Part shown: piece by piece, positions 1 to 62,628 of the stretch
Layout of the letters: each line of letters begins with the position of its first letter
How positions within the stretch are numbered: position 1 is the first letter of the stretch
From: Candidatus Eisenbacteria bacterium
GTDB lineage: Bacteria > Eisenbacteria > RBG-16-71-46
Direction: 5' to 3'
DNA: 64,000 bases
Assembly: GCA_020847735.1 (NCBI GenBank)
Contig: JADLBL010000018.1
Location: forward strand, 62,001 to 126,000
Position numbers and translations under genes: made by a program
Notes under the pieces: model-generated
Told to the model about the DNA's origin: nothing
The model's database searches: none
What the model saw: only the letters and a program-made list of their open reading frames with translations

Positions 1-1143
1 GTGACGCTGCACGATCCCGACGTGAGCCTGTGCTCCACGGGCGGACTGGTCGGCGTGGGCGGCCTGGCCCGCGATCCGGCGACGGGTGTGATGCACGCGC
101 TCGCACGCGGGACCGGGTCCACCGACGGGGTCTATTCCCTGAACGGCCCGAGCGCGGGGCGGAAGCTGCAAACCTACGATCGCCCTGCAGGCCTGATCTT
201 CACCCCGGACGGCGACGGGTTCGTGAGCGAGGACTACAGCGGGAAGATCTTCCGGTTCGTGGACGCCGAGTCGTCCATGGTCTGGGTGGATGGCATGCAC
301 CCGGGCGACGACGATCCGTACGGCATGGCCGTTGCGCCGCCCGGCTTCAGCGGCTCCAACATCTCGCCCGGCGACGTGATCGTCGTGGACTGCGGCTACA
401 GCGGGCCGGACCAGATCTGGTCGTTTCCGCCGGCGGCCGCCGCGTCGGAGCGCCTGCTCGCACCCGATCCGGGCAACGTGGACTGGTTCGACGTCGCCGC
501 TTCCCAGGACGGCCGCGTGTGGGTGAGCGACGCCCTCGCGGGCGCGTCGCTCACGCGATTGTTCGCGGACGGCACGACGTCGCCGCTCACGCTGGACGCC
601 ACGCTGGGCGACCCCGTCGGCCTCGCCTGGGACGGGCGCGAGGGCGTGTTGTATGTCGCCAGCCTCGCGCCTCCGGCGCTCTATCGGGTGGATCCAGTCA
701 CCGGCGGGACCCGGCTGGTCGCGGACGGCTTCGCGAGTCCGGCCTACGCGGGTATCGAGGTGGACGAAAACGCGCGCCGCCTATGGCTCGCCGATGCAGG
801 GCGGAACCGTGTTTACACGTTCTGCCTGCCCGGGACCGCGACCGAGGTCGAGGACGGCTCCCGGCCGGAGACGTTCACGCTTCACGCGGCACCCAATCCG
901 CTGCGCTCGATCACGACGCTCACGTTCTCGCTGCCGACGGCGGCGAGGACCAGCGTGGACGTGTTCGACCTCTCGGGGAGGCGCGTCGTCCGCCTGCGCG
1001 ACGGTCCGCTCGCGTCCGGGGAGCATGCGCTGCGCTGGGACGGCCGCGACGCGGCTGGCCGCCCCGTGGCGCCGGGGCTCTACCTCGCGCGCGTCACCGC
1101 AGGCACCCGGTCGGTTTCCCGCCGCGTCGTGGTCTGCCGTTAG
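1..1143 (+). CDS. Secreted NHL/SMP-30-like beta-propeller protein with FlgD-like C-terminal domain (5' partial)
   Basis: The frame is open from the first base and no signal peptide is visible, so the true start lies upstream of the window. Residues about 1-275 carry short repeats of the type 'GLAWDGREGVLYVASL' and 'IEVDENARRLWLADAGRNRVYTF', which resemble NHL/SMP-30 six-bladed propellers that read ligands or act as lactonases; no catalytic residues can be assigned. Residues about 295-380 form the FlgD-like/T9SS-type Ig domain (AAPNPLRSITTLTFSLP, then APGLYLARV) shared by four other proteins in the window. It is followed by a paralogous pair with the same tail, so it probably belongs to a block of exported surface proteins. 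The substrate is unknown. Confidence 0.75.
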   Translation: MTLHDPDVSLCSTGGLVGVGGLARDPATGVMHALARGTGSTDGVYSLNGPSAGRKLQTYDRPAGLIFTPDGDGFVSEDYSGKIFRFVDAESSMVWVDGMHPGDDDPYGMAVAPPGFSGSNISPGDVIVVDCGYSGPDQIWSFPPAAAASERLLAPDPGNVDWFDVAASQDGRVWVSDALAGASLTRLFADGTTSPLTLDATLGDPVGLAWDGREGVLYVASLAPPALYRVDPVTGGTRLVADGFASPAYAGIEVDENARRLWLADAGRNRVYTFCLPGTATEVEDGSRPETFTLHAAPNPLRSITTLTFSLPTAARTSVDVFDLSGRRVVRLRDGPLASGEHALRWDGRDAAGRPVAPGLYLARVTAGTRSVSRRVVVCR

Positions 1144-1228: not shown

Positions 1229-3682
1229 ATGCGCATCCTTGCTGCTGTTGTCGCCTTCCTGCTGTTCGCCTCGAGCGCGACCCCCGTGCACGCCGCCTGG
1301 CCGAACAGCCCGTTCACGAACCTGCCGCTGTGCACCGCGGCGGACAATCAGGAGACCCCGAGGATCATCCCGGATGGCACAGGAGGCGCGATCGTCACCT
1401 GGCAGGACTTCCGCAGCGGCACGAACTACGACATCTTCGCGCAGCACGTGCTGGCGTCGGGTGCGGTGGATCCGGCGTGGCCGGCCGATGGCCGCGCGCT
1501 GTGCACCGCGGCGAACGACCAGAATCTCCCGATGATCGTCCCGGATGACTCTGGTGGCGCGATCGTCACCTGGCAGGACGGCCGCAGCGGTACGAACTGG
1601 GACATCTACGCGCAGCACGTGCTGGCGTCGGGTGCGGTGGATCCGGCGTGGCCGGCCGACGGCCGCGCGCTGTGCACCGCGGCGAACTATCAGATCTACC
1701 CAATGATCGCGCCGGATGGCTCTGGTGGCGCGATCGTCACCTGGCAGGACATCCGCAACGGCGGGTTTTACAACATCTACGTGCAGCATGTGCTGGCCTC
1801 GGGTGCGGTGGATCCGGCGTGGCCGGCCGACGGCCGCGCGCTGATCACCATGGCGAACAACCAGACTGACCCGATGATCGTCCCGGATGGCTCTGGTGGC
1901 GTGATCGTCACCTGGGAGGACTACCGAAGCGGCACGGTCAGCGACATCTATGCCCAGCACCTGCTGGCGTCGGGTGCGGTGGATCCGGCGTGGCCCACGG
2001 GCGGCAACGCGCTGTGCACCGCGGCGGGCGACCAGAACTCCCCGATGATCGTTCCTGATGGCGCCGGCGGCGCGATCGTCACCTGGTACGACCTCCGCAG
2101 CGGCACGAACTTCGACATCTACGCGCAGCACGTGCTGGCCTCGGGCGCGGTGGATGGGGCGTGGCCCACGGACGGCCGCGCTCTGTGCACCGCGGCGAAC
2201 GACCAGTTCTACCAGCAGATCGTCGCGGACGGCGCCGGCGGCGCGATCGTCACCTGGCAGGACTACCGCAGCGGCACGAACTTCGCCATCTACGCGCAGC
2301 ACGTGCTGGCCTCGGGCGCGGTGGAGCCGGCGTGGCCGGCGGACGGCCGGGCGCTGTGCACTGCGGCGAACAACCAGTACTCCCCGACGATCGTCGCGGA
2401 CGGCGCCGGCGGCGCGATCGTCACCTGGGTCGACTACCGCAGCGGCAACTACGACATCTACGCTCAGCACGTGCTGACCTCGGGTGCGGTGGATGGGGCG
2501 TGGCCCACGGACGGCCGGGGGTTGTGCACCGCGGCGAACACCCAGAACTACCCGATAATCGCCCCGGATGGCTCAGGCGGCGCGATCGTCGCCTGGACTG
2601 ACTACCGCAGCGGTACGGGCTCCGACATCTACGCGCAGCGCGTCGAGGGGTTCGGCCGGCTCGGCAACCCCGAACCCACGATCGCGAGCCTGCGCGACGT
2701 GCCCTACGACAACGGCGGGCGCCTCAAGCTCTCGTGGGCGGCGAGCTACCTCGATGCCGCGCCGTTCAACGGGATCTACCAGTACGAGGTCTGGCGCTCG
2801 ATCCCGCCCGGCGCGGCGCAGGCGCGCCTGCGCGGCGGGGCCCGGCTGCTGCGGCCGGACGCGCTCGCGCCGCTCGCGCGGGACGGGGCGCTGCTCGCCA
2901 CCGCCAACGGCACGCAGACGATCTACTGGGAGTACGTCGCGACCCAGCCCGCGCGCCGGTTCGCCGGCTACAGCTACGAACTGCCCACCACCGGCGACTC
3001 GGTCGCGGCGGGCATCCCGGTGACGCAGGCGCTGGTCCTGGCGCTCGCCAGCGACGGCTACTCGTTCTGGACCTCGCAGCCGATGTCGGGCTACTCGGTG
3101 GACAACCTGGCGCCGGCCGCGCCGGCGCCGTTCACGGGCGAGTACGCGGCGGGCAGCGCGACGCTCCACTGGGGCCGCAACGCCGAGGCGGACCTCGCCG
3201 GCTACCGGCTCTACCGGGGCACCGTGCCGGGGTTCGTGCCGGGCCCCGCGAACCTGGTGTCGGCGCTGGCCGACACGGGCTACACGGACGTGGCGGGGCA
3301 GCCCTACATCTACAAGCTGACCGCGGTGGACGTGCACGGCAACGAGTCGCCGGTGGCGACGCTGTCGCCGTCGGGAACGCTGGCGGTGGACGGCTCCGGC
3401 GCGGCGACGCTGGCATTCGCGCCGCCCTCGCCCAACCCGGCAAACGCGCGGACGGTGCTGCGCTACACGCTGCCGGGTGCGGGGGCGGTGAAGCTGGCGA
3501 TCTACGACGCGGCGGGCCGGCAGGTGCGGGTGCTGGCGGCGGGGGTGCGCGAGGCAGGCGAGCACGCCGAGGCGTGGGATCTGCGCGACGAGGGCGGACG
3601 GGCGGTCCGCGCGGGGCTCTACTTCGCGCGCTTCGAGGCGGCGGGCGTCGCGCGCGTGCGCAGGGTGGCCGTCGCGCGCTGA
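1229..3682 (+). CDS. Secreted repeat protein with eight 57-residue repeats, Fn3-like segments and FlgD-like tail
   Basis: 817 residues. The ATG follows a purine-rich ribosome site (GAGGAGA) and encodes a signal peptide (MRILAAVVAFLLFASSATPVHA). Residues about 33-470 hold eight copies of a 57-residue unit centred on GGAIVTWxDxRSGTNxDIYAQ; one repeat per blade would give an eight-bladed propeller, which is inference. Two Fn3-like segments follow (about 485-650 and 650-710, 'ADLAGYRLYRGT'). The last 80 residues are the FlgD-like/T9SS-type domain, which in other FCB bacteria directs export or attachment. The next gene is a tandem paralog with seven repeats. The ligand is unknown; a surface-displayed or secreted binding protein is the likeliest role. 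Confidence 0.85.
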   Translation: MRILAAVVAFLLFASSATPVHAAWPNSPFTNLPLCTAADNQETPRIIPDGTGGAIVTWQDFRSGTNYDIFAQHVLASGAVDPAWPADGRALCTAANDQNLPMIVPDDSGGAIVTWQDGRSGTNWDIYAQHVLASGAVDPAWPADGRALCTAANYQIYPMIAPDGSGGAIVTWQDIRNGGFYNIYVQHVLASGAVDPAWPADGRALITMANNQTDPMIVPDGSGGVIVTWEDYRSGTVSDIYAQHLLASGAVDPAWPTGGNALCTAAGDQNSPMIVPDGAGGAIVTWYDLRSGTNFDIYAQHVLASGAVDGAWPTDGRALCTAANDQFYQQIVADGAGGAIVTWQDYRSGTNFAIYAQHVLASGAVEPAWPADGRALCTAANNQYSPTIVADGAGGAIVTWVDYRSGNYDIYAQHVLTSGAVDGAWPTDGRGLCTAANTQNYPIIAPDGSGGAIVAWTDYRSGTGSDIYAQRVEGFGRLGNPEPTIASLRDVPYDNGGRLKLSWAASYLDAAPFNGIYQYEVWRSIPPGAAQARLRGGARLLRPDALAPLARDGALLATANGTQTIYWEYVATQPARRFAGYSYELPTTGDSVAAGIPVTQALVLALASDGYSFWTSQPMSGYSVDNLAPAAPAPFTGEYAAGSATLHWGRNAEADLAGYRLYRGTVPGFVPGPANLVSALADTGYTDVAGQPYIYKLTAVDVHGNESPVATLSPSGTLAVDGSGAATLAFAPPSPNPANARTVLRYTLPGAGAVKLAIYDAAGRQVRVLAAGVREAGEHAEAWDLRDEGGRAVRAGLYFARFEAAGVARVRRVAVAR
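1329..2645 (+). repeat. Tandem 171-bp coding repeats (8 units)
   Basis: The phrase GATCGTCACCTGG recurs every 171 bp, for example near 1390 and 1561. Units differ mainly at a few codons, giving long near-identical DNA stretches prone to recombination. Confidence 0.9.
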
Positions 3683-3923: not shown

Positions 3924-6200
3924 ATGCGCATCCTCGCTTCCGCAGCCGTCTGCCTGCTGTTCGCCTCGAGTGCGCCCCCCGCGCAGGCCGCCTGGCCGAA
4001 CAGCCCGTTCACGAACCTTCCGTTGTCCACCGCGGCGAACGAGCAGTCCTACCCGACGATCGCCTCGGACGGCGCCGGCGGCGCGATCGTCACCTGGCAG
4101 GACTTCCGCAGCGGCACGAACTCCGACATCTACGCGCAGCACGTGCTGGCCTCGGGCGCGGTGGATCCGGCGTGGCCGGCGAACGGCCGGGCGCTGTGCA
4201 CCGCGGCCTCCAACCAGGCCTCCCCGACGATCGCCTCGGACGGCGCCGGCGGCGCGATCGTCACCTGGTACGACTTGCGCAGCGGCAACAACGACATCTA
4301 CGCGCAGCACGTGCTGGCGTCGGGTGCGGTGGATCCGGCGTGGCCAGCGAACGGCCGCGCGCTGTGCACCGCGGCCTCCAGCCAGTCCTCCCCGACGATC
4401 GTCGCGGACGGCGCCGGCGGCGCGATCGTCACCTGGTACGACTACCGCAGCGGCACGAACTCCGACATCTACGCGCAGCACGTGCTGGCCTCGGGTGCGG
4501 TGGATCCAGCGTGGCCGGCCGACGGCCGGGCGCTGTGCGCCGCGGCGGACGACCAGTACTACCCGCAGATCGTCGTGGACGGCGCCGGCGGCGCGATCGT
4601 CACCTGGTATGACTTGCGCAGCGGCAACAACGACATCTACGCGCAGCACGTGCTGGCCTCGGGCGCGGTGGATCCAGCGTGGCCGGCGAACGGCCGGGCG
4701 CTGTGCACCGCGGCCTCCGATCAGGCCTCCCCGATGATCGCCTCGGACGGCGCCAGCGGCGCGATCGTCACCTGGTATGACTTGCGCAGCGGCAACTACG
4801 ACATCTACGCGCAGCACGTGCTGGCCTCGGGCGCGGTGGACCCGGCGTGGCCGGCCGACGGCCGCGCGCTGTGCACCGCGACCTCCGACCAGGCCTCCCC
4901 GATGATCGCCTCGGACGGCGCCGGCGGCGCGATCGTCACCTGGTACGACTCCCGCGGCGGCAACTCCGACATCTACGCGCAGCACGTGCTGGGCTCGGGC
5001 GTGGCGGATCCGGCGTGGCCGGGGGACGGGCAGGCGGTGTGCACCACGACGAACGACCAGTACTCCCCGAAGATCGTCGCGGACGGCGCCGGCGGCGCGA
5101 TCGTCACCTGGCAAGACAAGCGAGGTGGCACGAACTACGACATCTACGCGCAGCGCATCGGCCGCCACGGCTACCTGGGCACGCCGGAGCCGGAGATGGT
5201 CGCCGTCGGGGATGTCGCGAACGACCAGGGCGGCCAGGTGAAGGTGTCGTGGAACGCGAGCTGGCTCGACCTCGCGTCCAACCCCGAGTTGGACGCCTAC
5301 GACGTGCTGCGCTCGGTGCCGACCTCGTTCGCGGCGCAGGCCGCGGCGCGCGGTCTCCGCGTGCGCGCGCTGACGAGCGGGTCCGCGCCGCCCGAGCCGG
5401 GGGATCTCGTCGCGCTGCCCATGAACGGGACCACCTACTACTGGGAGTACCTCACCGAAATCACGCCGCGGCACTACCTGGCCGGCTACAGCTACGTCGC
5501 GGCCACCCTGGGCGATTCGATCGCGGGCTCGAACCCCGGGACCGCGTTCATGGTGGTGGCGCGCAACTCGGCGATCACGATGTGGTGGCCGTCGCTGCCG
5601 ATGTCGGGCTACTCGGTGGACAACCTGGCGCCGGTGGCGCCGGCGCCGTTCACGGGCGAGTACGCGGGCGGCGCGACGAACCTGCACTGGCGGCCGAACG
5701 CCGAAGCGGACCTGGCGGGCTACCGGCTCTATCGGGGAACCAGCGCGGCGTTCGTGCCGGACGGGGCGAGTCTGGTGGCTGCGCTCGCCGACACCGGCTA
5801 CGCCGACGCGGGCGCGGCGGGGCGCTGGTACAAGCTCACGGCGGTGGACGTGCACGGCAACGAGTCGCCGGTGGCGACGCTGTCGCCGTCGGGGACGCTG
5901 GCGGTGGACGGCTCCGGCGCGGCGGCGCTGGCGTTCGCGCCGCCCTCCCCCAATCCGGCGAACGCGCGGACGGTGCTGCGCTACACGCTGCCGGCTGCGG
6001 GGGCGGTGAAGCTGGCGATCTACGACGCGGCGGGCCGGCAGGTGCGGGTGCTGGCCGCCGGACCGCGCGAGGCGGGCGAGCACGCCGAGGCTTGGGACCT
6101 GCGCGACGAGGGCGGCCGGGCGGTGCGCGCGGGGCTCTACTTCGCGCGCTTCGAGGCGGCGGGTGTGGCGCGCGTTCACAGGGTGGCCGTCACGCGCTGA
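3924..6200 (+). CDS. Secreted repeat protein with seven repeats, paralog of the preceding gene
   Basis: 758 residues from the ATG at 3924, chosen because GGGAGGAG lies just upstream and a signal peptide follows (MRILASAAVCLLFASSAPPAQA); an upstream ATG in frame at 3795 has neither. Seven units of the GGAIVTWYDLRSGNNDIYAQ type occupy about residues 33-410, one fewer than the neighbour. Fn3-like segments and the FlgD-like domain follow and are nearly identical at DNA level to those of the neighbour. Leader, repeats, tail and 3' hairpin are all shared, which shows a tandem duplication followed by loss or gain of one repeat. The role is unknown. Confidence 0.85.
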   Translation: MRILASAAVCLLFASSAPPAQAAWPNSPFTNLPLSTAANEQSYPTIASDGAGGAIVTWQDFRSGTNSDIYAQHVLASGAVDPAWPANGRALCTAASNQASPTIASDGAGGAIVTWYDLRSGNNDIYAQHVLASGAVDPAWPANGRALCTAASSQSSPTIVADGAGGAIVTWYDYRSGTNSDIYAQHVLASGAVDPAWPADGRALCAAADDQYYPQIVVDGAGGAIVTWYDLRSGNNDIYAQHVLASGAVDPAWPANGRALCTAASDQASPMIASDGASGAIVTWYDLRSGNYDIYAQHVLASGAVDPAWPADGRALCTATSDQASPMIASDGAGGAIVTWYDSRGGNSDIYAQHVLGSGVADPAWPGDGQAVCTTTNDQYSPKIVADGAGGAIVTWQDKRGGTNYDIYAQRIGRHGYLGTPEPEMVAVGDVANDQGGQVKVSWNASWLDLASNPELDAYDVLRSVPTSFAAQAAARGLRVRALTSGSAPPEPGDLVALPMNGTTYYWEYLTEITPRHYLAGYSYVAATLGDSIAGSNPGTAFMVVARNSAITMWWPSLPMSGYSVDNLAPVAPAPFTGEYAGGATNLHWRPNAEADLAGYRLYRGTSAAFVPDGASLVAALADTGYADAGAAGRWYKLTAVDVHGNESPVATLSPSGTLAVDGSGAAALAFAPPSPNPANARTVLRYTLPAAGAVKLAIYDAAGRQVRVLAAGPREAGEHAEAWDLRDEGGRAVRAGLYFARFEAAGVARVHRVAVTR
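4015..5155 (+). repeat. Tandem coding repeats (7 units) of the second paralog
   Basis: Units of 168-171 bp; the three-base difference reflects SGTNS versus SGNN in the repeat. They are strongly similar to the repeats at 1329-2645. Confidence 0.9.
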
Positions 6201-39066: not shown

Positions 39067-39834
39067 CTAGCGATAGAGGCTCTTGACGCGGCCCCAGCTC
39101 GAGGCGGCCGCCGGAGTGGGCAGCAGGTAGGAGACGAGCTGGTAAAGCGTCCCGGCGTCGTACTGCACGAGTCCCACGTCGTCCGCGTACCACTCGAAGG
39201 CGCTCTCGGGGCCCGTGGCCGAGGGCCCGGCCGCCGGCCCCGCGAGCCGGCCGTCGAGCGCGAGCGCCTCTCCGCGCGGCGCGAATGGCAGCGCCGGCCC
39301 CGCCGGCCGCGCCGGAGGCGGAACCTGCGCCACCCCGAAGCAGTCGAACGATCCCGCCGGGTTCACCAGCGTCGCGTGCCCCTGGACCTTCCACCAGCTG
39401 TCGAACTCGCCGAAGGTCACGTTGTCCGGAATGGCGATGGCGCGCGTGTGCTGGTTCCACTCGAGGCCCAGCACGGGCGAGCCGGGAAAGATCCGGACCG
39501 GCGGCTCGTAGACAAGGCCGAAGGGTATGCTCGCCCGGTAGTAGCCACCGAGCAGCACGCTGCCGTCGGTGTCGAGCATCCAGAAGTTGATGAGCCCGTC
39601 GTCGGCGCCGCCCGAGTACGTCTTGATGTACATGCGGCGCCCCCGCACGCGCACCGGCTCGGTGATCTCCTCGAAGTGCGGCTCGTCGGCCTCGTTCATG
39701 TACTGCCAGCGGTTGCCGACGTCGAGCGGCAGCCACTCGGCGCGCGCCGCGCCGCCGGGCATGAGCGCGCCGGCGCAGGCGGCCAGCGCGAGCGCGGGCA
39801 GTAACGCGAGCGGGTGCCGCCTCCCTGGCGCCAT
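39067..39834 (-). CDS. Exported protein ending in the SSWGRVKSLYR tail
   Basis: 255 residues from the ATG at 39834. The signal peptide (MAPGRRHPLALLPALALAACAGALMPGGAARA) contains a Cys (AACAG) that could be a lipobox. The mature part starts EWLPLDVGNRWQYMNEADEP, a pattern common in secreted proteins of unknown function whose first strand resembles lipoprotein-like beta-sheet domains. The last eleven residues are SSWGRVKSLYR, identical to the end of the protein at 55059. No catalytic motif is seen. It is divergent from the 917-residue metalloprotease gene. Confidence 0.8.
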   Translation of the reverse strand: MAPGRRHPLALLPALALAACAGALMPGGAARAEWLPLDVGNRWQYMNEADEPHFEEITEPVRVRGRRMYIKTYSGGADDGLINFWMLDTDGSVLLGGYYRASIPFGLVYEPPVRIFPGSPVLGLEWNQHTRAIAIPDNVTFGEFDSWWKVQGHATLVNPAGSFDCFGVAQVPPPARPAGPALPFAPRGEALALDGRLAGPAAGPSATGPESAFEWYADDVGLVQYDAGTLYQLVSYLLPTPAAASSWGRVKSLYR

Positions 39835-55058: not shown

Positions 55059-55808
55059 TCAGCGATACAGGCTCTTCACGCGGCCCCAGCTCGACTTCTC
55101 GGTCGGAACCGGACCCGAGATCACGGAGAGCTGATAGCCCGGGTTCGCGTTCTGGCCCGCGATCGTGTACCAGCCGGCGGCCCCCACGGTGCTCGCGTCA
55201 ACGTACATGTCGGGACCGCTGCTGCCGACGGTCGGAGGATCCAGGGAGGCGATGCCGAGCCGGGTCGCCGTGCCCGTGAACGAAGCCACGGTCTGCAGCG
55301 CGATGACGTCCGTGGTGTTGAGGTCAATGGCGAGCGGATCGAGGTTCGTCACCGAAATGAACGTGTAATAGCCGGGGTCGAGTCCGGCGCCGAAGTCAAT
55401 GTTGGCGCTGAAGCCGCCCAGGTAGCCCGACGTGACCGCGTCGTAGAAGTCCACGCCGAAGCTGGCGGTCAGCACCGGCCCGGCGCTGGAGCTGGAATTG
55501 TAGAACGTGAAGGTCGCGGCCTGCAGAGTGCCGGTGCCGGTCGTGAACAGCTCATCGCCGAAGACGGCGCCCAGGTCGGTCGAACTGAAGCCGAAGTTCG
55601 CCGCCGAGGCGGTGTTGTCGTAGATGACGATCGGCAGCGCGGCCGGAGCGGTCGGCTGGATCTTCGTCGTGTGCGTCGCGTGGTTGTGGATCGTGTAGCC
55701 CTTGAAGCCGCCCAACGGCTCGCTCGTGAGCTGGGCCGCCGCGCTTCCCGCGAACGCGCACAGCGCGAGGGCGGCGATGGACAGGCGCATCGTGGTCGCA
55801 AGCTTCAT
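55059..55808 (-). CDS. Exported beta-rich protein ending in the SSWGRVKSLYR tail
   Basis: 249 residues from the ATG at 55808, preceded by GGAGGAG. A signal peptide (MRLSIAALALCAFAGSAAA) is followed by a beta-rich domain (IVIYDNTASAANFGFSSTDL; TFTFYNSSSSAGPVLTASFG; DPPTVGSSGPDMYVDAS). That domain resembles secreted proteins which in planctomycetes often end in a PEP-CTERM anchor. Here the end is a short linker and SSWGRVKSLYR, the same eleven residues as at the end of the protein at 39067. The function is unknown. Confidence 0.82.
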   Translation of the reverse strand: MKLATTMRLSIAALALCAFAGSAAAQLTSEPLGGFKGYTIHNHATHTTKIQPTAPAALPIVIYDNTASAANFGFSSTDLGAVFGDELFTTGTGTLQAATFTFYNSSSSAGPVLTASFGVDFYDAVTSGYLGGFSANIDFGAGLDPGYYTFISVTNLDPLAIDLNTTDVIALQTVASFTGTATRLGIASLDPPTVGSSGPDMYVDASTVGAAGWYTIAGQNANPGYQLSVISGPVPTEKSSWGRVKSLYR

Positions 55809-56192: not shown

Positions 56193-59100
56193 GTGCGGCG
56201 AGAGTTCCCCCGTTCGCTGGCCCTGCTCATCCTGTTCGCGCGGGCCTCTCCCCTCGGCGTCGCCGCAGGCCCGCTTTCCGAGTACGACGCGGCCGCGGCC
56301 GTTCGAATCCCCCCCGCCGCGGCCGCCCGCGCGCAGGCGGCCGCCGCGCTGCCAGGGATCCGCCGGCTCGTCCGCGTGTCGAGCACGAACGATCGCTTCG
56401 GGGTTCCAACGTTCGTGTGGGCGAATCGGGCGCCCGCGACCGCCGTGACCGCCCGGCCGTCGTCGCGGCCCTCGCCGGGCGCCGCCGCGCGCGCGCACGT
56501 TTCGGACCTCGCGCCGCTCTGGCGGCTGGACCGTGCGGATGTCGCCGGCATGCGCCTGCAACGGGTGCGCGACGTCGGCCGCGGCCCGATCATCGCGACG
56601 TTTCGGCAGGAGGTCGGCGGCGTCGAGGTGTTCCGCGACGAGCTCAAGGTGTGCATGGACCGCGACCTCTCGCTCGTCTCGGTGAGTGGCTCGCTGCCGC
56701 CGGCTTCCGCCGCGGGTCCGAGCACCGACGTGTTCGCGCTCCCCGCTTCGCGGGCGGTCGCGCTCGCGCTGCGCGACTTCGGCTCGCTCGCCGCGGTTCC
56801 GGCCGACCCGGCCGCGACCGGGAGCGCCGACGGCGGCTACCAGACGTTCGCCGCGCCCGGGCCGGTCGGCGAACCGGGTGGCATGCCCGCCGTGAACGGG
56901 CCGCTGCGCGCACGCAAGGTCTGGTTCGATCTCGGCGCGACGCTCGAGCCCGCCTGGTACGCCGAAGTCATCGGCGAGACCGCCGCCTACTCGACCGTCT
57001 GGTCGGCGCGCGACGGCCGGCTGCTCTTCCGGCATTCGCTGATGCAGGACGAAGCCTATTCCTACCGCGTGTGGGCGAACACGACGGCCCCCTACGCGCC
57101 GATGGACGGACCCCAGGGCGACGGCGCATCGCCGCATCCGACCGGGCTGCCGGACCTGTACCAGCCTTCGCTGATCGCTCCCAACATGGTGACGCTGCAG
57201 AACGGCCCGATCTCGACCCTCGACCCGTGGCTCGCCCCCGGCGCGACCCAGACGACCGGCAACAACGTGGACGCCTACCTCGACCTCGTCGCGCCGGACG
57301 GCTACTCCGCGGGCGACCTGCGCGCCACCACGACCTCGCCCGGAGTCTTCGACCGCACCTACGACACGACCCTCCCCCCGGGCGCGAGCGACGACCAGCG
57401 CATGGCCGCGGGGACCAGTCTGTTCTACCTGAACAACTGGCTGCACGACATGTTCTACGACTCCGGCTTCGACGAGGCGGCGGGCAACGCGCAAACGGAC
57501 AACTACGGGCGGGGCGGCATCGGCGGCGACGCGGTCCTCGCCGAGGGCGAGGACTACGGCGGAACCAACAACGCGAACATGTCCACGCCGGCCGACGGCG
57601 GTTCGCCGCGCATGCAGATGTACGTGTTCAACCCTCCCAACAGCGCCAACCTGATCGTGTCCTCGCCGCCCGCCCTCGCGGGCACCTACCTGGCGGGCGT
57701 CGCCGTGTTCGGCCCGCAGACCTTTTCCCTGAGCGGCCAGGTGGTCGCCGGGCAGGACGCGGCCGCGCCGGTGGACGACGGCTGCACGGCCATCACCAGC
57801 GCGGTCGCCGGAAAGATCGCGCTCGTGGATCGGGGAACGTGCTCGTTCGTGATCAAGGCACAGAACGCGCAGAACGCCGGCGCGATCGGCGTGATCATCG
57901 TCAACAACGTCGCCGGCTCGACGCCGCCGACGCTGAGCGGCACCGGCACGATCACGATTCCGGCGCTGTCGGTGACGCAGTCGGACGGGGCGCTGATCCG
58001 CGCCCAGCTCGGCGCGGGCGTGACGCTGACGATGAATCGCGTGGCGCAGCTCCAGCGCGACGGCACCATTGACGGGCACATCGTCGCCCACGAGTGGGGG
58101 CATTACATCAGCAACCGCCTGATCGGCAACGCCGCGGGCCTGAGCAACCAGCAGGGCGGCGGCATGGGCGAGGGCTGGGGGGACTTCCACTCGCTGCTGC
58201 TGACCGTGCGGCCCGGCGACGACCTCGCGGGCGCGTACGCGGTCGGCAGCTACGCGCTGAGCGGCAATCTCGTCGCGTCGAACGCGTGGTATTTCGGCGT
58301 GCGCCGCTACCCCTACTCGACCGACATGACGAAGGATCCCCTGACCTTCAAGCACATCCAGAACGGCGTCGCGCTGCCCGCGGGGCCACCCCTCAACGGC
58401 AACCCGACGGGCCTCAACAACGCCGAAGTGCACGCCACCGGCGAGGTCTGGTGCACCATGCTGTGGGAGTGCTACGCCGCGCTGCTCGGCGACACCGGCC
58501 GGCTGACGTTCGACCAGGCGCAGCAGCGCATGAAGGACATCCTCGTCGCCGGCTACATGCTGACGCCGAACGCGCCGACGTTCGTCGAGGCGCGCGACGC
58601 GGTCCTCGCGGCGGCGATGGCGGGCGATCCGGCGGACTACGCGCTCCTGGCGCAGGCGTTCGCCAGGCGCGGCATGGGCACCGGTGCCGTCGCGCCGCCG
58701 CGTGACGCCTCGGACAACGTCGGCGTGACCGAGAGCTTCGTGCTCGGCGGCGACCAGTCGGTGGTCTCCGCGACGCTCACCGACGACCTCCACTCGTGTG
58801 ACGACGACACCTACCTCGACAACGGCGAGCGCGGGGCGCTGACGATCACCGTCGTCAACACGGGCGCGACCAGCCTCGGCCCGGGCACGATCACGGTGAC
58901 CAGCCCGAGCCCCGGCGTGAGCTTCCCGATGGGCAACGTGGTGGCCACGCCCGCGTCGCAGCCGTTCGGGAGCGTGGTCGTGACGGTGCCGGTCGAACTC
59001 GCGGGCGCGTCCGATGGCGCCCTGCTGCACCTCGACATCGCCTGCGACAACGCCGGGCTGCTGGTGCCCGGTCCCCGGCTCGCGTCGTACGAGGACCGCG

Positions 59101-59999
59101 TGCAATCGGACGAGACGTTCGGCGCCACCGATTTCGTCGAGGCGCATCACTCGACCTGGAACCCGCTCGTCGCGCCGGGCAGCGCCGGCGATCCCTGGGC
59201 CCGCGAGGCGTGGGCCAGCGGCGAGAATGCCTGGCACGTCACCGACGCGGGCGGCATCGCCGACCTGTCGCTGGTCTCCCCTTCCCTGTTCGTGAGCACG
59301 GGCACGCCGCTGGTCGTCACCTTCCAGCAGCGCTACGTCTTCGAGTTCAGCGACGCCACGAACTGGGACGGCGGAGTGATCGAGATTTCCACCGACGGCG
59401 GCTCGAGCTGGACCGACGCCGGCGCCAGCGTCTCGCCGGGCTACGGCGGAACGATCACGAACGCCTCGGGCAACCCGCTGGGCGGGCGCTCCGGGTGGGT
59501 CGGCACGAGCGCCGGCTATCCGGCCTTCACCTTCACCACCCTCGATCTCGGCACGAGCTACGCCGGACAGACGGTGCTGATCCGTTTCCGGCACGGCGCC
59601 GACGCGGGCGTCGGCGCTCCCGGCTGGTGGGTGGACAACGTCGCGGTCACGGGCGTGACCGCGCCGCCCTTCCTCGTGCTCGCGCCCGAGAGCGGCACGT
59701 GCACGCCGCTGGCGGTCGGCGAGGCCGCCCCGTCGCGGGTCCTGCTGGCGCTGGCCGGCGGAAACCCCGCGCGCGACGTGTCGCGCCTGCGCTTCGCGCT
59801 GCCCGCGCGGCAGCGCGCGCAGCTCACCATTCACGACCTCGCCGGGCGGCTCGTCGCGACGCTCGCCGACGGCGAGTACACGGCGGGCTGGCACGACGTC
59901 GCGTTCACACGCGCGGGCGGCTCGTCGCCCGGCGTCTACTTCGCCCGACTGCGCGTGGACGGGCGGCAGTACGTGCAACGGCTGGTGGTCGTTCGCTGA
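56193..59999 (+). CDS. Secreted M36 fungalysin-like metalloprotease with PA and FlgD-like domains
   Basis: 1268 residues from the GTG at 56193, chosen because GAGGAG lies 7 bases upstream and a signal peptide follows (LALLILFARASPLGVAAG); the upstream ATG at 56115 has no ribosome site. A propeptide-like (FTP) region spans about 60-200. The protease core has HEWGH (His633, Glu634, His637) and GEGWGDF (Glu660). A PA domain inserts at about 500-620 (GKIALVDRGTCSFVIKAQNA). The C-terminus carries a carbohydrate-binding-like beta region and the FlgD-like/T9SS domain. It degrades extracellular protein. It converges with the M6 peptidase gene. Confidence 0.93.
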   Translation: MRREFPRSLALLILFARASPLGVAAGPLSEYDAAAAVRIPPAAAARAQAAAALPGIRRLVRVSSTNDRFGVPTFVWANRAPATAVTARPSSRPSPGAAARAHVSDLAPLWRLDRADVAGMRLQRVRDVGRGPIIATFRQEVGGVEVFRDELKVCMDRDLSLVSVSGSLPPASAAGPSTDVFALPASRAVALALRDFGSLAAVPADPAATGSADGGYQTFAAPGPVGEPGGMPAVNGPLRARKVWFDLGATLEPAWYAEVIGETAAYSTVWSARDGRLLFRHSLMQDEAYSYRVWANTTAPYAPMDGPQGDGASPHPTGLPDLYQPSLIAPNMVTLQNGPISTLDPWLAPGATQTTGNNVDAYLDLVAPDGYSAGDLRATTTSPGVFDRTYDTTLPPGASDDQRMAAGTSLFYLNNWLHDMFYDSGFDEAAGNAQTDNYGRGGIGGDAVLAEGEDYGGTNNANMSTPADGGSPRMQMYVFNPPNSANLIVSSPPALAGTYLAGVAVFGPQTFSLSGQVVAGQDAAAPVDDGCTAITSAVAGKIALVDRGTCSFVIKAQNAQNAGAIGVIIVNNVAGSTPPTLSGTGTITIPALSVTQSDGALIRAQLGAGVTLTMNRVAQLQRDGTIDGHIVAHEWGHYISNRLIGNAAGLSNQQGGGMGEGWGDFHSLLLTVRPGDDLAGAYAVGSYALSGNLVASNAWYFGVRRYPYSTDMTKDPLTFKHIQNGVALPAGPPLNGNPTGLNNAEVHATGEVWCTMLWECYAALLGDTGRLTFDQAQQRMKDILVAGYMLTPNAPTFVEARDAVLAAAMAGDPADYALLAQAFARRGMGTGAVAPPRDASDNVGVTESFVLGGDQSVVSATLTDDLHSCDDDTYLDNGERGALTITVVNTGATSLGPGTITVTSPSPGVSFPMGNVVATPASQPFGSVVVTVPVELAGASDGALLHLDIACDNAGLLVPGPRLASYEDRVQSDETFGATDFVEAHHSTWNPLVAPGSAGDPWAREAWASGENAWHVTDAGGIADLSLVSPSLFVSTGTPLVVTFQQRYVFEFSDATNWDGGVIEISTDGGSSWTDAGASVSPGYGGTITNASGNPLGGRSGWVGTSAGYPAFTFTTLDLGTSYAGQTVLIRFRHGADAGVGAPGWWVDNVAVTGVTAPPFLVLAPESGTCTPLAVGEAAPSRVLLALAGGNPARDVSRLRFALPARQRAQLTIHDLAGRLVATLADGEYTAGWHDVAFTRAGGSSPGVYFARLRVDGRQYVQRLVVVR

Positions 60000-60033: not shown

Positions 60034-62628
60034 CTACTTCACCAGCGTCAGCTTCCGCACGTCCGAGAAGCCTCCCGCCGTGATCCGGTCGAAGTACACG
60101 CCCGGGCCCGCCGGGCGGCCCTCGTCGTCGCGCCCGTTCCATCTCAGCGCGTATGCGCCCGCCGGCTGCTCGTCGTCCACCAGGGTGCGCACCACCGCGC
60201 CGTTCACGTCGTAAACGCGCAGCACCACGTGGGCGTGCGCCGGAAGCTCGTAACGGAGGGTGGCCGTTTCCCTGAACGGGCTCGGGTACGCCGGCAGCAG
60301 GGCGAACCTGCGCGGCGCCGGGTGCGTGACGGCCACGCTTCCGCTGAGCGTGAACGCCTGCGGAAGCGCCGCGCTCGCGCCCCCCGGGTTGAACGCGACC
60401 ACGTCGTAGGCGCCGTTGGCGCCGCCCGTCAGGTCGAACCGCGCGATCACGCGATCCTTGCCCGCCCAGTACACGGACGTGGCGCCGAACGTCCGTGCGC
60501 CATGCACGAGCTGAACGCCGCCGCCCTTCGCGAAGAGCGCGCCGTCAACCTGGAGCGTCACGCTGGTGCCCGTCGCCGCGTTCGGCGTGACCGACACCGG
60601 CACCGGCGCGGGCCAGCCGCCCGCGAGCGTCGCGTTCAGGGGGTCGGCGTTGGGGCCCGTGAGCCGCACCGACACGATGCTCGGTCCGTCGTAGCCGTCG
60701 CTGCTGGGCGACGAGGCGCCGTCGAGGCGGTCGTTGCCGGTCGTTCCGGGATAGGGATCGCCGTCGTCTCCGCGGTTGATGTTGCCCTCGAGCTGCGCGA
60801 GATGGTCGGCCTGGACCACGGCCACGCCGCGCGGCTGGTTGTCGAACCGGCCGCCGCTCTGCGTGTTCTGCTCGATGTGCCAGACCACCAGGCCACCCCC
60901 GGGTGCGGTGCCGGGGATGTTCACGTCCGAGCCGATGGGCTTGCGGTTCTCCACCAGGAAGTACTCGGAGGGCGGGTTCATCTCCTCGGCCCAGCCGTCC
61001 TCACGGGTCTCGAAGTCGGTGAAGTAGCTCTCGCCGCCGCCCGTGACTGAGATGTCGTCCAGCGAGATCGCGCCGCACTGGGTGCCGACCCCGGACTGAT
61101 CCGAGTACCACCCGTCGCTGACGAGGTGAAATGCCACCGTGTACGGCCCCGGCGAGAGATACGGCGTCAGGTCCACGGTCTGCGTGCCCGATGTCTGCCC
61201 CTGGTTGTCGTTGTAGGTCGCGAAGACGCTCGTGGTTCCGCCAGACGTGACCTCGCCGTACACGAAGTCGTTCGGAGGCGCCTGACCGTACGTGTAGGTG
61301 AACTCGAACCGGTACTGGTACTGCAGCGACACGCTGCCTGATCCGCCGTAGTTGAACTCGCGCGACACGCGCGTGTCCCAGTCGTCGCCGTAGCCGCTCA
61401 CGTTCGAGTTCTCCCAGTTGCGGCCGGCCGCCTCCGCGGAGGTCAGTCCGCAGTGCATCGAGTACGCACCGGCGATCGGACAGAGCGTCGAGCGGCGCCA
61501 CCGTTCGTGCACGACGTCGAGGCGGTAGGCCTCGCGGTTCATCTCCGCGTCGGGAATCGCGTAGGGCGTGGGTTCCGGCGGGGCGACGATCACGTTCGAC
61601 CAGCCGAGAAAGTTTTTCGACCAGGCGCCCATGTACGCGGGGTTGTCGGGCTGGTTCCAGTTCCCGGCACCCATCAGGTCCCACCAGCCCACGCCCGACG
61701 ACCCGCCGTCGGTGTCGTACAGGTCGGGAAGCCCGAACGTATGGCCGAACTCGTGGCAGAACACCCCGATGTCGATCATGGTCGTGTTGTCGCAGTTCAG
61801 GGCGGGTTCGATCGTGTAGTCGTCCACCTTGATGAAGCCTCCGCCCGTGCGCGCGTCGTTGGTCGTGTACGGCCCGGGCCCGACGCCCTCGGACCGCCAC
61901 CCCGCAAGTGAATAGCAATGCGACCAGATCTGGTCGTACACATCACACTCGGCGCCGAGCTGTGAGTGCACGAACGACACGAAGTCCACGAAGCCGTCAT
62001 CGTCTCCCGAGTTGGGAATGCCGTCCGGGCCGTCGTTGTCGTACTGCCCGAAATCGATCGAGGAGTCGTTGGCGGAGATCGTGGTGGCGATGAGTTCCGT
62101 GATGCGCGCCGACGAGCACAGGCCCTGGCACATGGCCTGACCGGCGTAGTACACGGCGGTCTGCGGAAGGGACGTCCAACCGTAGACGGTGCCGGTCACA
62201 TGGAGATCGCCGTGCGAGTTCTCGTCGTAGAACTGCGTCAGCGTGCGCGGCGAGTACGGGCCGTCGAAGAGCCGGGTCTGCAGTTGCGCGATCGGGAACG
62301 GATCCGCTCCCACGTCGCTGTACTTCACGCAGAAGACGGGGACGGACAACGTGCCGCGCACCTCGAGTTCCGAACGCGCCGCCGCCGGAATCAGCTCGCG
62401 TTTGTAGAAGCCGCGGTCCTCGATGAACTTCTCGCGGTTCGCGCGGATCGCCCGGGTCTTCGCGATCCACGCGTGCTGGGACTCGAACCTCCGCATGCGG
62501 TCCAGGCTCTGACGGACCCGCGGCGGCATCGTCACGCCCGGGGCGGGAGCGACGCCCTGCGCCCGGGCGCACTGCGCGAGCACGACGCAGGCCAGAACCA
62601 ACTTCAGAGTCGCAACCGAGCAGCGCAT
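60034..62628 (-). CDS. Secreted M6 family metalloprotease with FlgD-like tail
   Basis: 864 residues from the ATG at 62628. A signal peptide (MRCSVATLKLVLACVVLAQCARA) precedes a propeptide. The zinc site HEFGHTFGLPD (His292, Glu293, His296, Asp302) matches M6 (immune inhibitor A) peptidases; LMGAGNW follows as the Met-turn. After about 400 there are beta-sandwich segments (TVDLTPYLSPGPYTVAFHLV) and, from about 780, the FlgD-like/T9SS domain (LPAYPSPFRETATLRYELP; GPGVYFDRIT). It should be secreted and cleave proteins outside the cell. It converges with the M36 gene with a 34-bp gap. Confidence 0.93.
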   Translation of the reverse strand: MRCSVATLKLVLACVVLAQCARAQGVAPAPGVTMPPRVRQSLDRMRRFESQHAWIAKTRAIRANREKFIEDRGFYKRELIPAAARSELEVRGTLSVPVFCVKYSDVGADPFPIAQLQTRLFDGPYSPRTLTQFYDENSHGDLHVTGTVYGWTSLPQTAVYYAGQAMCQGLCSSARITELIATTISANDSSIDFGQYDNDGPDGIPNSGDDDGFVDFVSFVHSQLGAECDVYDQIWSHCYSLAGWRSEGVGPGPYTTNDARTGGGFIKVDDYTIEPALNCDNTTMIDIGVFCHEFGHTFGLPDLYDTDGGSSGVGWWDLMGAGNWNQPDNPAYMGAWSKNFLGWSNVIVAPPEPTPYAIPDAEMNREAYRLDVVHERWRRSTLCPIAGAYSMHCGLTSAEAAGRNWENSNVSGYGDDWDTRVSREFNYGGSGSVSLQYQYRFEFTYTYGQAPPNDFVYGEVTSGGTTSVFATYNDNQGQTSGTQTVDLTPYLSPGPYTVAFHLVSDGWYSDQSGVGTQCGAISLDDISVTGGGESYFTDFETREDGWAEEMNPPSEYFLVENRKPIGSDVNIPGTAPGGGLVVWHIEQNTQSGGRFDNQPRGVAVVQADHLAQLEGNINRGDDGDPYPGTTGNDRLDGASSPSSDGYDGPSIVSVRLTGPNADPLNATLAGGWPAPVPVSVTPNAATGTSVTLQVDGALFAKGGGVQLVHGARTFGATSVYWAGKDRVIARFDLTGGANGAYDVVAFNPGGASAALPQAFTLSGSVAVTHPAPRRFALLPAYPSPFRETATLRYELPAHAHVVLRVYDVNGAVVRTLVDDEQPAGAYALRWNGRDDEGRPAGPGVYFDRITAGGFSDVRKLTLVK

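Follow-up and report, generated by a model that had tools for sequence, protein, structure and literature searches.

The peptide WGxIKxLYR looks like a C-terminal label, undescribed in the resources searched, that is carried by many unrelated exported proteins. It is probably an export or sorting signal that functions at the C-terminus without a membrane helix, with its carriers delivered via an outer-membrane route. Judged from the sequences, it has the general properties of a sorting signal, namely short C-terminal homology on unrelated exported proteins and tails that are exchangeable.

The tag and other tails in the window

The window (the whole stretch of 64,000 nucleotides that was analyzed) contains the following features.

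55059..55808, minus strand: CDS, 249 aa, exported protein of unknown family, with signal-peptide-like start and C-terminal tag
55059..55109, minus strand: C-terminal tag V-P-T-E-K-S-S-W-G-R-V-K-S-L-Y-R plus stop of the 249-aa protein
55734..55808, minus strand: probable Sec signal peptide MKLATTMRLSIAALALCAFAGSAAA, read from sequence
39067..39834, minus strand: second tagged exported protein, 255 aa (231 aa by codon-usage gene call; start uncertain)
39067..39117, minus strand: C-terminal tag T-P-A-A-A-S-S-W-G-R-V-K-S-L-Y-R plus stop of the second tagged protein
1..1143, plus strand: T9SS type A / FlgD-Ig tail protein, cut by the window start (TIGR04183 33.9 bits; FlgD_ig)
1229..3682, plus strand: T9SS type A / FlgD-Ig tail protein (TIGR04183 24.5 bits)
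3924..6200, plus strand: T9SS type A / FlgD-Ig tail protein (TIGR04183 24.4 bits)
56193..59999, plus strand: M36 metallopeptidase with T9SS type A tail (TIGR04183 25.1 bits; Peptidase_M36)
60034..62628, minus strand: M6 metallopeptidase with T9SS type A / FlgD-Ig tail (TIGR04183 23.0 bits, at cut-off; Peptidase_M6)

The peptide SSWGRVKSLYR, to which the earlier note had drawn attention, is confirmed at 55059-55094: the minus strand there reads S-S-W-G-R-V-K-S-L-Y-R-stop, i.e. the last 11 residues of the tag and the stop codon, at the C-terminal end (...VPTEKSSWGRVKSLYR, then stop) of the 249-residue exported-type ORF. The ORF ending at 39067 on the minus strand has the identical last 11 residues, and its protein matches nothing in NCBIfam or Pfam at E ≤ 0.001. 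That the exported proteins of the window carry two classes of tail, as also proposed, holds with two tags and five T9SS type A tails; the latter belong to the five proteins described as FlgD-like, all of which match TIGR04183 at or above its cut-off.

The body of the 249-residue protein, which the earlier note likened to secreted proteins with PEP-CTERM tails, gives no support to that resemblance: it matches nothing in Pfam at E ≤ 1, and its homologs are confined to its genus. Two homologs are detectable among the 47 genomes of the phylum, and both are tagged rather than ending tail-less at the same point. The sole NCBIfam match is irrelevant (0.15), with no model covering the tag; a comparison with plasmids returned just one match (28%, E 0.4) and one with PDB sequences returned none. 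The signal peptide was read from the sequence; a home-made heuristic, used rather than SignalP, puts the start six residues later. An AF2 model of the protein, built on a 3-sequence alignment, is mostly beta besides an N-terminal helix; its mean pLDDT of 43.7 means low confidence, and it was kept out of the fold search.

Anatomy and distribution of the tag

The genome of the window (3.66 Mb) holds the codon pattern W-G-x-[IV]-K-x-x-[YF]-R-stop at 16 places and the reversed pattern at none, compared with ~0.0015 matches expected from base composition alone. The last codon of the pattern, TRR, admits TGG as well; one such row was noticed, the chance match in G048. A relaxed search, in which the stop codon was dropped and Leu or Phe was also accepted at the Ile position, finds 21 places in the same genome, and because 20 of these end exactly at a stop codon (the other has four extra residues and then a stop) the motif is C-terminal by nature.

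Tag anatomy was derived from 181 tag ORFs with a minimum length of 60 aa. The search itself dictates the columns W, G, K, aromatic and R and a hydrophobic residue at -6, and the pattern of the named-genome scan, from which most loci came, also favors a hydrophobic one at -3; since the patterns fix or favor these columns, they are not independent evidence. Position -10, a free column, is Thr or Ser in 96%, and further upstream the preferences are Thr/Val/Ser at -16, Pro (59%) at -15, Val/Thr/Ala at -14 and Glu (40%) at -13. The Pro at -15, six residues before Trp, is found in 20/20 tags of the window's own genome and in 152/245 collected tags, compared with 3/245 and 4/245 for Pro at the adjoining positions. 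The VPTEK sequence, described earlier as a linker, does precede SSWGRVKSLYR, but given the conserved free columns and the Pro at -15 it belongs to the tag instead of forming a separate linker. Conservation is down to background by about -21, i.e. ~20 residues from the C-terminus, and the signal is thus a short peptide and not a domain. The idea that the tag might be a membrane anchor is contradicted by the lack of any membrane-helix-like stretch within the last 30 residues in 174 tagged proteins (0/174); in 3/174 such a stretch lies further upstream, within the 60 residues that precede the tag.

Variant tags were seen in homologs (loci L150, L148, L167, L160, L163 and L104), with W[ST]xIK in place of the canonical core, with K, E, Q or RR at the end, or in some cases with extra residues. 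As such variants fall outside the exact pattern, the tag counts given here are probably low.

The tag is spread over at least three GTDB phyla, as far as pattern matches in sequence can tell. In Eisenbacteria, the GTDB phylum of the window, it occurs in 44/47 genomes (453 hits, median 11, 0 control hits), and in a second phylum (that of G051, which includes Latescibacterota, Krumholzibacteriota and UBP1 records) in 74/78 genomes (588 hits, 2 control hits). In a third phylum (that of G052, a Gemmatimonadaceae record) 22/64 genomes are positive, with 1 control hit; these genomes have 1-4 copies each, mostly of a Phe type (WGKIKELFR and alike). All ten loci fetched in the third phylum (L318-L327) have genuine-looking tags on exported-type proteins, one of which is subtilase-like by eye. 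Since its matches proved to be tags, the third phylum was counted as a positive group and not as a tag-free control; the reversed pattern and the 42 genomes of that phylum without tags served as the remaining controls. The maximum is reached with the pattern at up to 62 places in one genome. The named-genome scan with the tag returned at least 118 matching stretches; tagged proteins also turn up in Zixibacteria (two next to each other in one record) and in Poribacteria (at least one in a record), and a match in Syntrophaceae, where the motif is internal, was set aside as chance. The spread across phyla fits PMC11323493, in which Latescibacterota, Eisenbacteria and Effluviviacota are described as having a supported common root.

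Carrier proteins and exchange of tails

Clustering by blastp divides the 242 tag bodies into 94 groups, of which 64 have a single member. A signal-peptide-like ATG start lies within 120 codons in 112/148 tag ORFs with closed 5' ends vs 81/385 neighboring ORFs, and if all start codons along the whole ORF are admitted the figures are 135/148 vs 143/385; the test is a home-made heuristic, and the control ORFs (≥200 aa) are not all real genes. Pfam matches of 102 tagged proteins include LTD (6), NHL (3), beta-helix (2), PKD (2) and laminin G (2) among the first 25 of 46 families, so that their domain content is predicted to be mainly extracellular-type. In the same 102 proteins 25 NCBIfam families are matched at E ≤ 0.01, and these include neither TIGR04183 or any other T9SS tail model, nor an IPTL-CTERM model, nor a model of the tag itself. 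They do include ExeM of the GlyGly type, choice-of-anchor J (one tagged protein) and choice-of-anchor V (one tagged protein, 107.9 vs cut-off 42); in locus L098 the choice-of-anchor V domain covers residues 30-189 of a total of 212, with the tag directly after it. The PEP-CTERM protein model ScyF has two tagged members (268 and 198 bits vs cut-off 350) and the MYXO-CTERM family one (30.9 vs cut-off 200), and as these scores are below cut-off they reflect shared domains rather than family membership.

Lipobox-like N-termini were observed in one tagged family (L025:271-1527, L087, L101, L298), whose members are probably lipoproteins that also bear the tag. In another locus (L198; G000:C15:168853-172029) four Cys-rich tagged genes stand in tandem. 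The AF2 model of this Cys-rich family (15 sequences, mean pLDDT 79.6) has a folded beta-rich body and a short helix at 239-246, with pLDDT below 50 for the last ten residues; Foldseek with the body returned only weak cohesin-like matches (3ghp, E 4.9e-4, TM 0.32).

When tag bodies were compared with 711 other ORFs (fetched loci and window), 35 homologous ORFs lacking the canonical tag were found. By eye, ten of them have FlgD/T9SS-type tails, nine have variant tags, and the other 16 are unclear or cut off by the end of the locus; none has a PEP-CTERM tail. TIGR04183 is matched at or above cut-off in four of the eight T9SS-type partners scanned, and in the remaining four the corresponding stretch has matches to FlgD/T9SS models that stay below cut-off; two further partners are the window proteases, at 25.1 and 23.0 bits vs the cut-off of 23. 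What most pairs have in common is a single domain of a larger T9SS-tailed protein. The tagged protein L140:3002-3538 and its neighbor L140:4023-5867, which has a T9SS-like tail, have a common domain with 35% identity (E 2e-30), and L163 matches the N-terminus of L115 with 45% identity (E 3e-43). These alignments show that homologous domains carry either the tag or a predicted T9SS-type tail in exchange. The part of the earlier proposal in which the tag takes the place of a sorting tail therefore stands with respect to T9SS-type tails on homologous bodies, and not with respect to PEP-CTERM. The M36 peptidase at 56193-59999, which comes near a 'myxosortase-dependent' NCBI family (1411 bits, cut-off 1500) yet has a T9SS type A tail, is another tail swap.

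The claim that the tag replaces PEP-CTERM is not borne out: the two coexist in many genomes, their bodies are unshared and their copy numbers are uncorrelated. PEP-CTERM matches above cut-off are present in 31/47 genomes of the phylum. Of 43 PEP-CTERM-like ORFs picked by an in-house regular expression (41 from the phylum's genomes, two from loci of the named-genome scan), 42 were long enough for body comparison, and these share nothing with the tag bodies (blastp E 1e-3; phmmer 0.01). Over the 47 genomes tag and PEP-CTERM copy numbers show no correlation (Spearman 0.07, p 0.63); with unshared bodies and uncorrelated counts, the two are parallel classes in this phylum. Two genomes are peculiar, G012 with 12 PEP-CTERM matches (E ≤ 0.1) and no tag and G018 with 12 and one tag, and a switch or trade-off between tail classes is possible there. 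The window's own genome has no PEP-CTERM (PF07589) match at E ≤ 0.1. It does encode an exosortase; the EPS-type cluster concerned (L208; G000:C20:306500-326000) also includes an EpsI-like DUF3485 gene and a PrsK/PrsR-like pair of GAF histidine kinase and sigma-54 response regulator. At that threshold the exosortase has no visible targets in this genome.

Comparison with known systems underlines both likeness and difference. The PEP-CTERM/exosortase (EpsH) system is described, in the parts of PMC1569441 consulted, by a short C-terminal signal present in multiple copies per genome on proteins with signal peptides and very diverse bodies. The tag is similar in being present many times in a genome, on signal-peptide proteins of diverse kinds, and both occur in this phylum; it differs in that its consensus has neither a PEP motif nor a transmembrane helix, its basic residues lie inside the motif instead of after the helix, and it does not track exosortase. 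MYXO-CTERM/myxosortase and GlyGly-CTERM/rhombosortase are likewise C-terminal tags of surface proteins, with MYXO-CTERM lineage-wide (excerpts of PMC11980579 and PMC3237569); known tags of sortase logic are tripartite and include a membrane helix (PMC11980579, same excerpts), and homologs bearing other tails are reported for GlyGly-CTERM (PMC3237569, same excerpts). Unlike the tripartite MYXO-CTERM, GlyGly-CTERM and LPXTG signals (motif, TM helix, basic cluster), the tag has no TM helix. T9SS signals are Ig-like domains or regions of ~100 residues according to the portion of PMC10202324 consulted. The tag resembles the T9SS CTD in its signal-peptide cargo, in being a C-terminal signal without a TM helix and in homologous bodies that bear the tag or a type A-like tail; SprA is present in most of the genomes, with exceptions that include G054 and G041. 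The tag is unlike T9SS types A, B and C in its length of 9-16 residues, in lacking sequence likeness and in having no TIGR04183 match in 102 proteins. A further short tail, IPTL-CTERM, has the motif IPTLxxWG, with Pro shortly before Trp-Gly, followed by a TM helix; the similar placement of Pro before Trp-Gly in the tag may be a chance likeness. Among the papers listed by a search of openly available journal literature, none was relevant to the tag.

Candidate readers of the tag

The helix-less tag, the slot that it has in common with T9SS-type tails, the extracellular-type bodies and the Sec-like signals together argue for a periplasmic sorting signal. Tagged proteins would be exported by Sec, as their signal-peptide-like N-termini suggest; the body would then fold, leaving a flexible and usually Pro-containing linker and the cationic WGxIKxLYR with its free C-terminus to protrude, the peptide perhaps forming a small helix that stands apart from the body (modeled with low local confidence in one family). 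In the periplasm the peptide would be read by an outer-membrane delivery route, which would send the tagged cargo outside the cell or onto its surface. We infer the export route, the surface or extracellular destination and the receptor.

T9SS is the likeliest reader, with a separate dedicated machine as a close alternative. It is quite possible, though short of probable, that T9SS or a branch of it reads the tag. The T9SS translocon SprA is present in 39/47 genomes of the phylum and in 25/26 of the good-quality ones (the exception, G041, is 93% complete and has one tag), and in 22/25 records with a tag match, which partly overlap the 47 genomes (G067 = G002) and include G048, the SprA-negative chance match. 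The medians of tag number are 11 in SprA-positive and 5.5 in SprA-negative genomes (p 0.03), a difference that may reflect completeness only. Against reading by T9SS stands the fact that SprA does not follow the tag strictly, chiefly in G054 (UBP1, no completeness figure), which has 14 tags and no SprA. Other SprA-negative genomes with tags are G062 (3 tags) and, at 82-87% completeness, G019, G036 and G010 (14, 7 and 9 tags), and G038 has SprA and zero tags.

A dedicated new machinery, i.e. a receptor or a protease/ligase unrelated to T9SS that follows an exosortase- or rhombosortase-like logic on a substrate lacking a membrane helix, is possible but somewhat doubtful. It is favored by the 14 tags of SprA-negative G054, by the failure of all 102 tagged proteins to match a T9SS tail model, T9SS signals being far longer, and by the strong conservation of pattern-free positions such as the Ser/Thr before Trp; it is disfavored by the T9SS-type tails on homologous bodies and by the gene neighborhoods, in which no recurrent processing-enzyme-like candidate adjoins the tags among the 25 commonest clusters of the 711 neighbor ORFs. 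The sole large neighbor group comprises 48 ORFs from 34 loci, the longest member being a FlgD-tailed protein, and exosortase recurs in these clusters only from three loci, which had been fetched for their PEP-CTERM genes. Processing of the tag instead of PEP-CTERM by the own genome's exosortase, for which one may cite the co-occurrence of exosortase, DUF3485 gene and kinase/sigma-54 regulator pair with no PEP-CTERM at E ≤ 0.1, and the weak association of higher tag counts with exosortase-positive genomes (medians 11 vs 4, p 0.03), is very improbable: exosortase-negative genomes are tag-rich, among them G017 (97% complete, 15 tags) and G032 (96%, 10), which are largely refuting, and the less complete G011 (19) and G003 (12), while G012 and G038 are exosortase-positive and tag-free, and the tag has no membrane helix. 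Exosortase was rejected as the tag reader on the tag-rich exosortase-negative genomes.

Two further readings were weighed. A cationic amphipathic tag might itself bind lipopolysaccharide, the outer membrane or a surface polymer as a physical substitute for an anchor, which comports with the positive net charge of 245/245 tags (partly by construction, as K and R are in the pattern), with a helical moment of 0.45 vs 0.34 for shuffled tags and with the short free helix in one model of low local confidence; such adhesion is unlikely, however, as the strand moment is equally high (0.47), the Ser/Thr before Trp and the Pro at Trp-6 exceed the needs of a general membrane-binding peptide, and the tagged family with lipobox-like starts would already be anchored. 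It is quite unlikely that the tag is a docking motif by which tagged subunits plug into a common extracellular scaffold in the manner of dockerin and cohesin: a short linear motif, a loose linker, diverse extracellular-type bodies and the cohesin-like fold match in one tagged family agree with docking, but that match is weak and concerns a tagged body and not a receptor, and exchange with T9SS-type tails suits a sorting role better. Chance, composition or common ancestry of the bodies has practically no probability as an explanation and is refuted by the 0 control hits in 47 genomes, the 94 body clusters and the 0.0015 matches expected; nothing was found in its favor.

The broader proposal of a new, superphylum-wide sorting system, in which a 9-16-residue helix-less tag on Sec-exported proteins would be read by an outer-membrane receptor and would work beside T9SS and exosortase in the same cells, is put forward tentatively, at a little under an even chance; the proposal extends to Eisenbacteria, Krumholzibacteriota/Latescibacterota and relatives. 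Phylogenetic profiling for the receptor is feasible, with 118/125 genomes positive in two phyla and 42/64 negative in the third. The tag also makes it directly testable whether a helix-less peptide of ~10 residues can do the job of a T9SS domain of ~100 residues. Few marks in a sequence reveal what uncultured bacteria place outside the cell, and sorting tails are one of them; in lineages known largely from metagenomes the tag would give a predicted location to many proteins that have neither family nor function.
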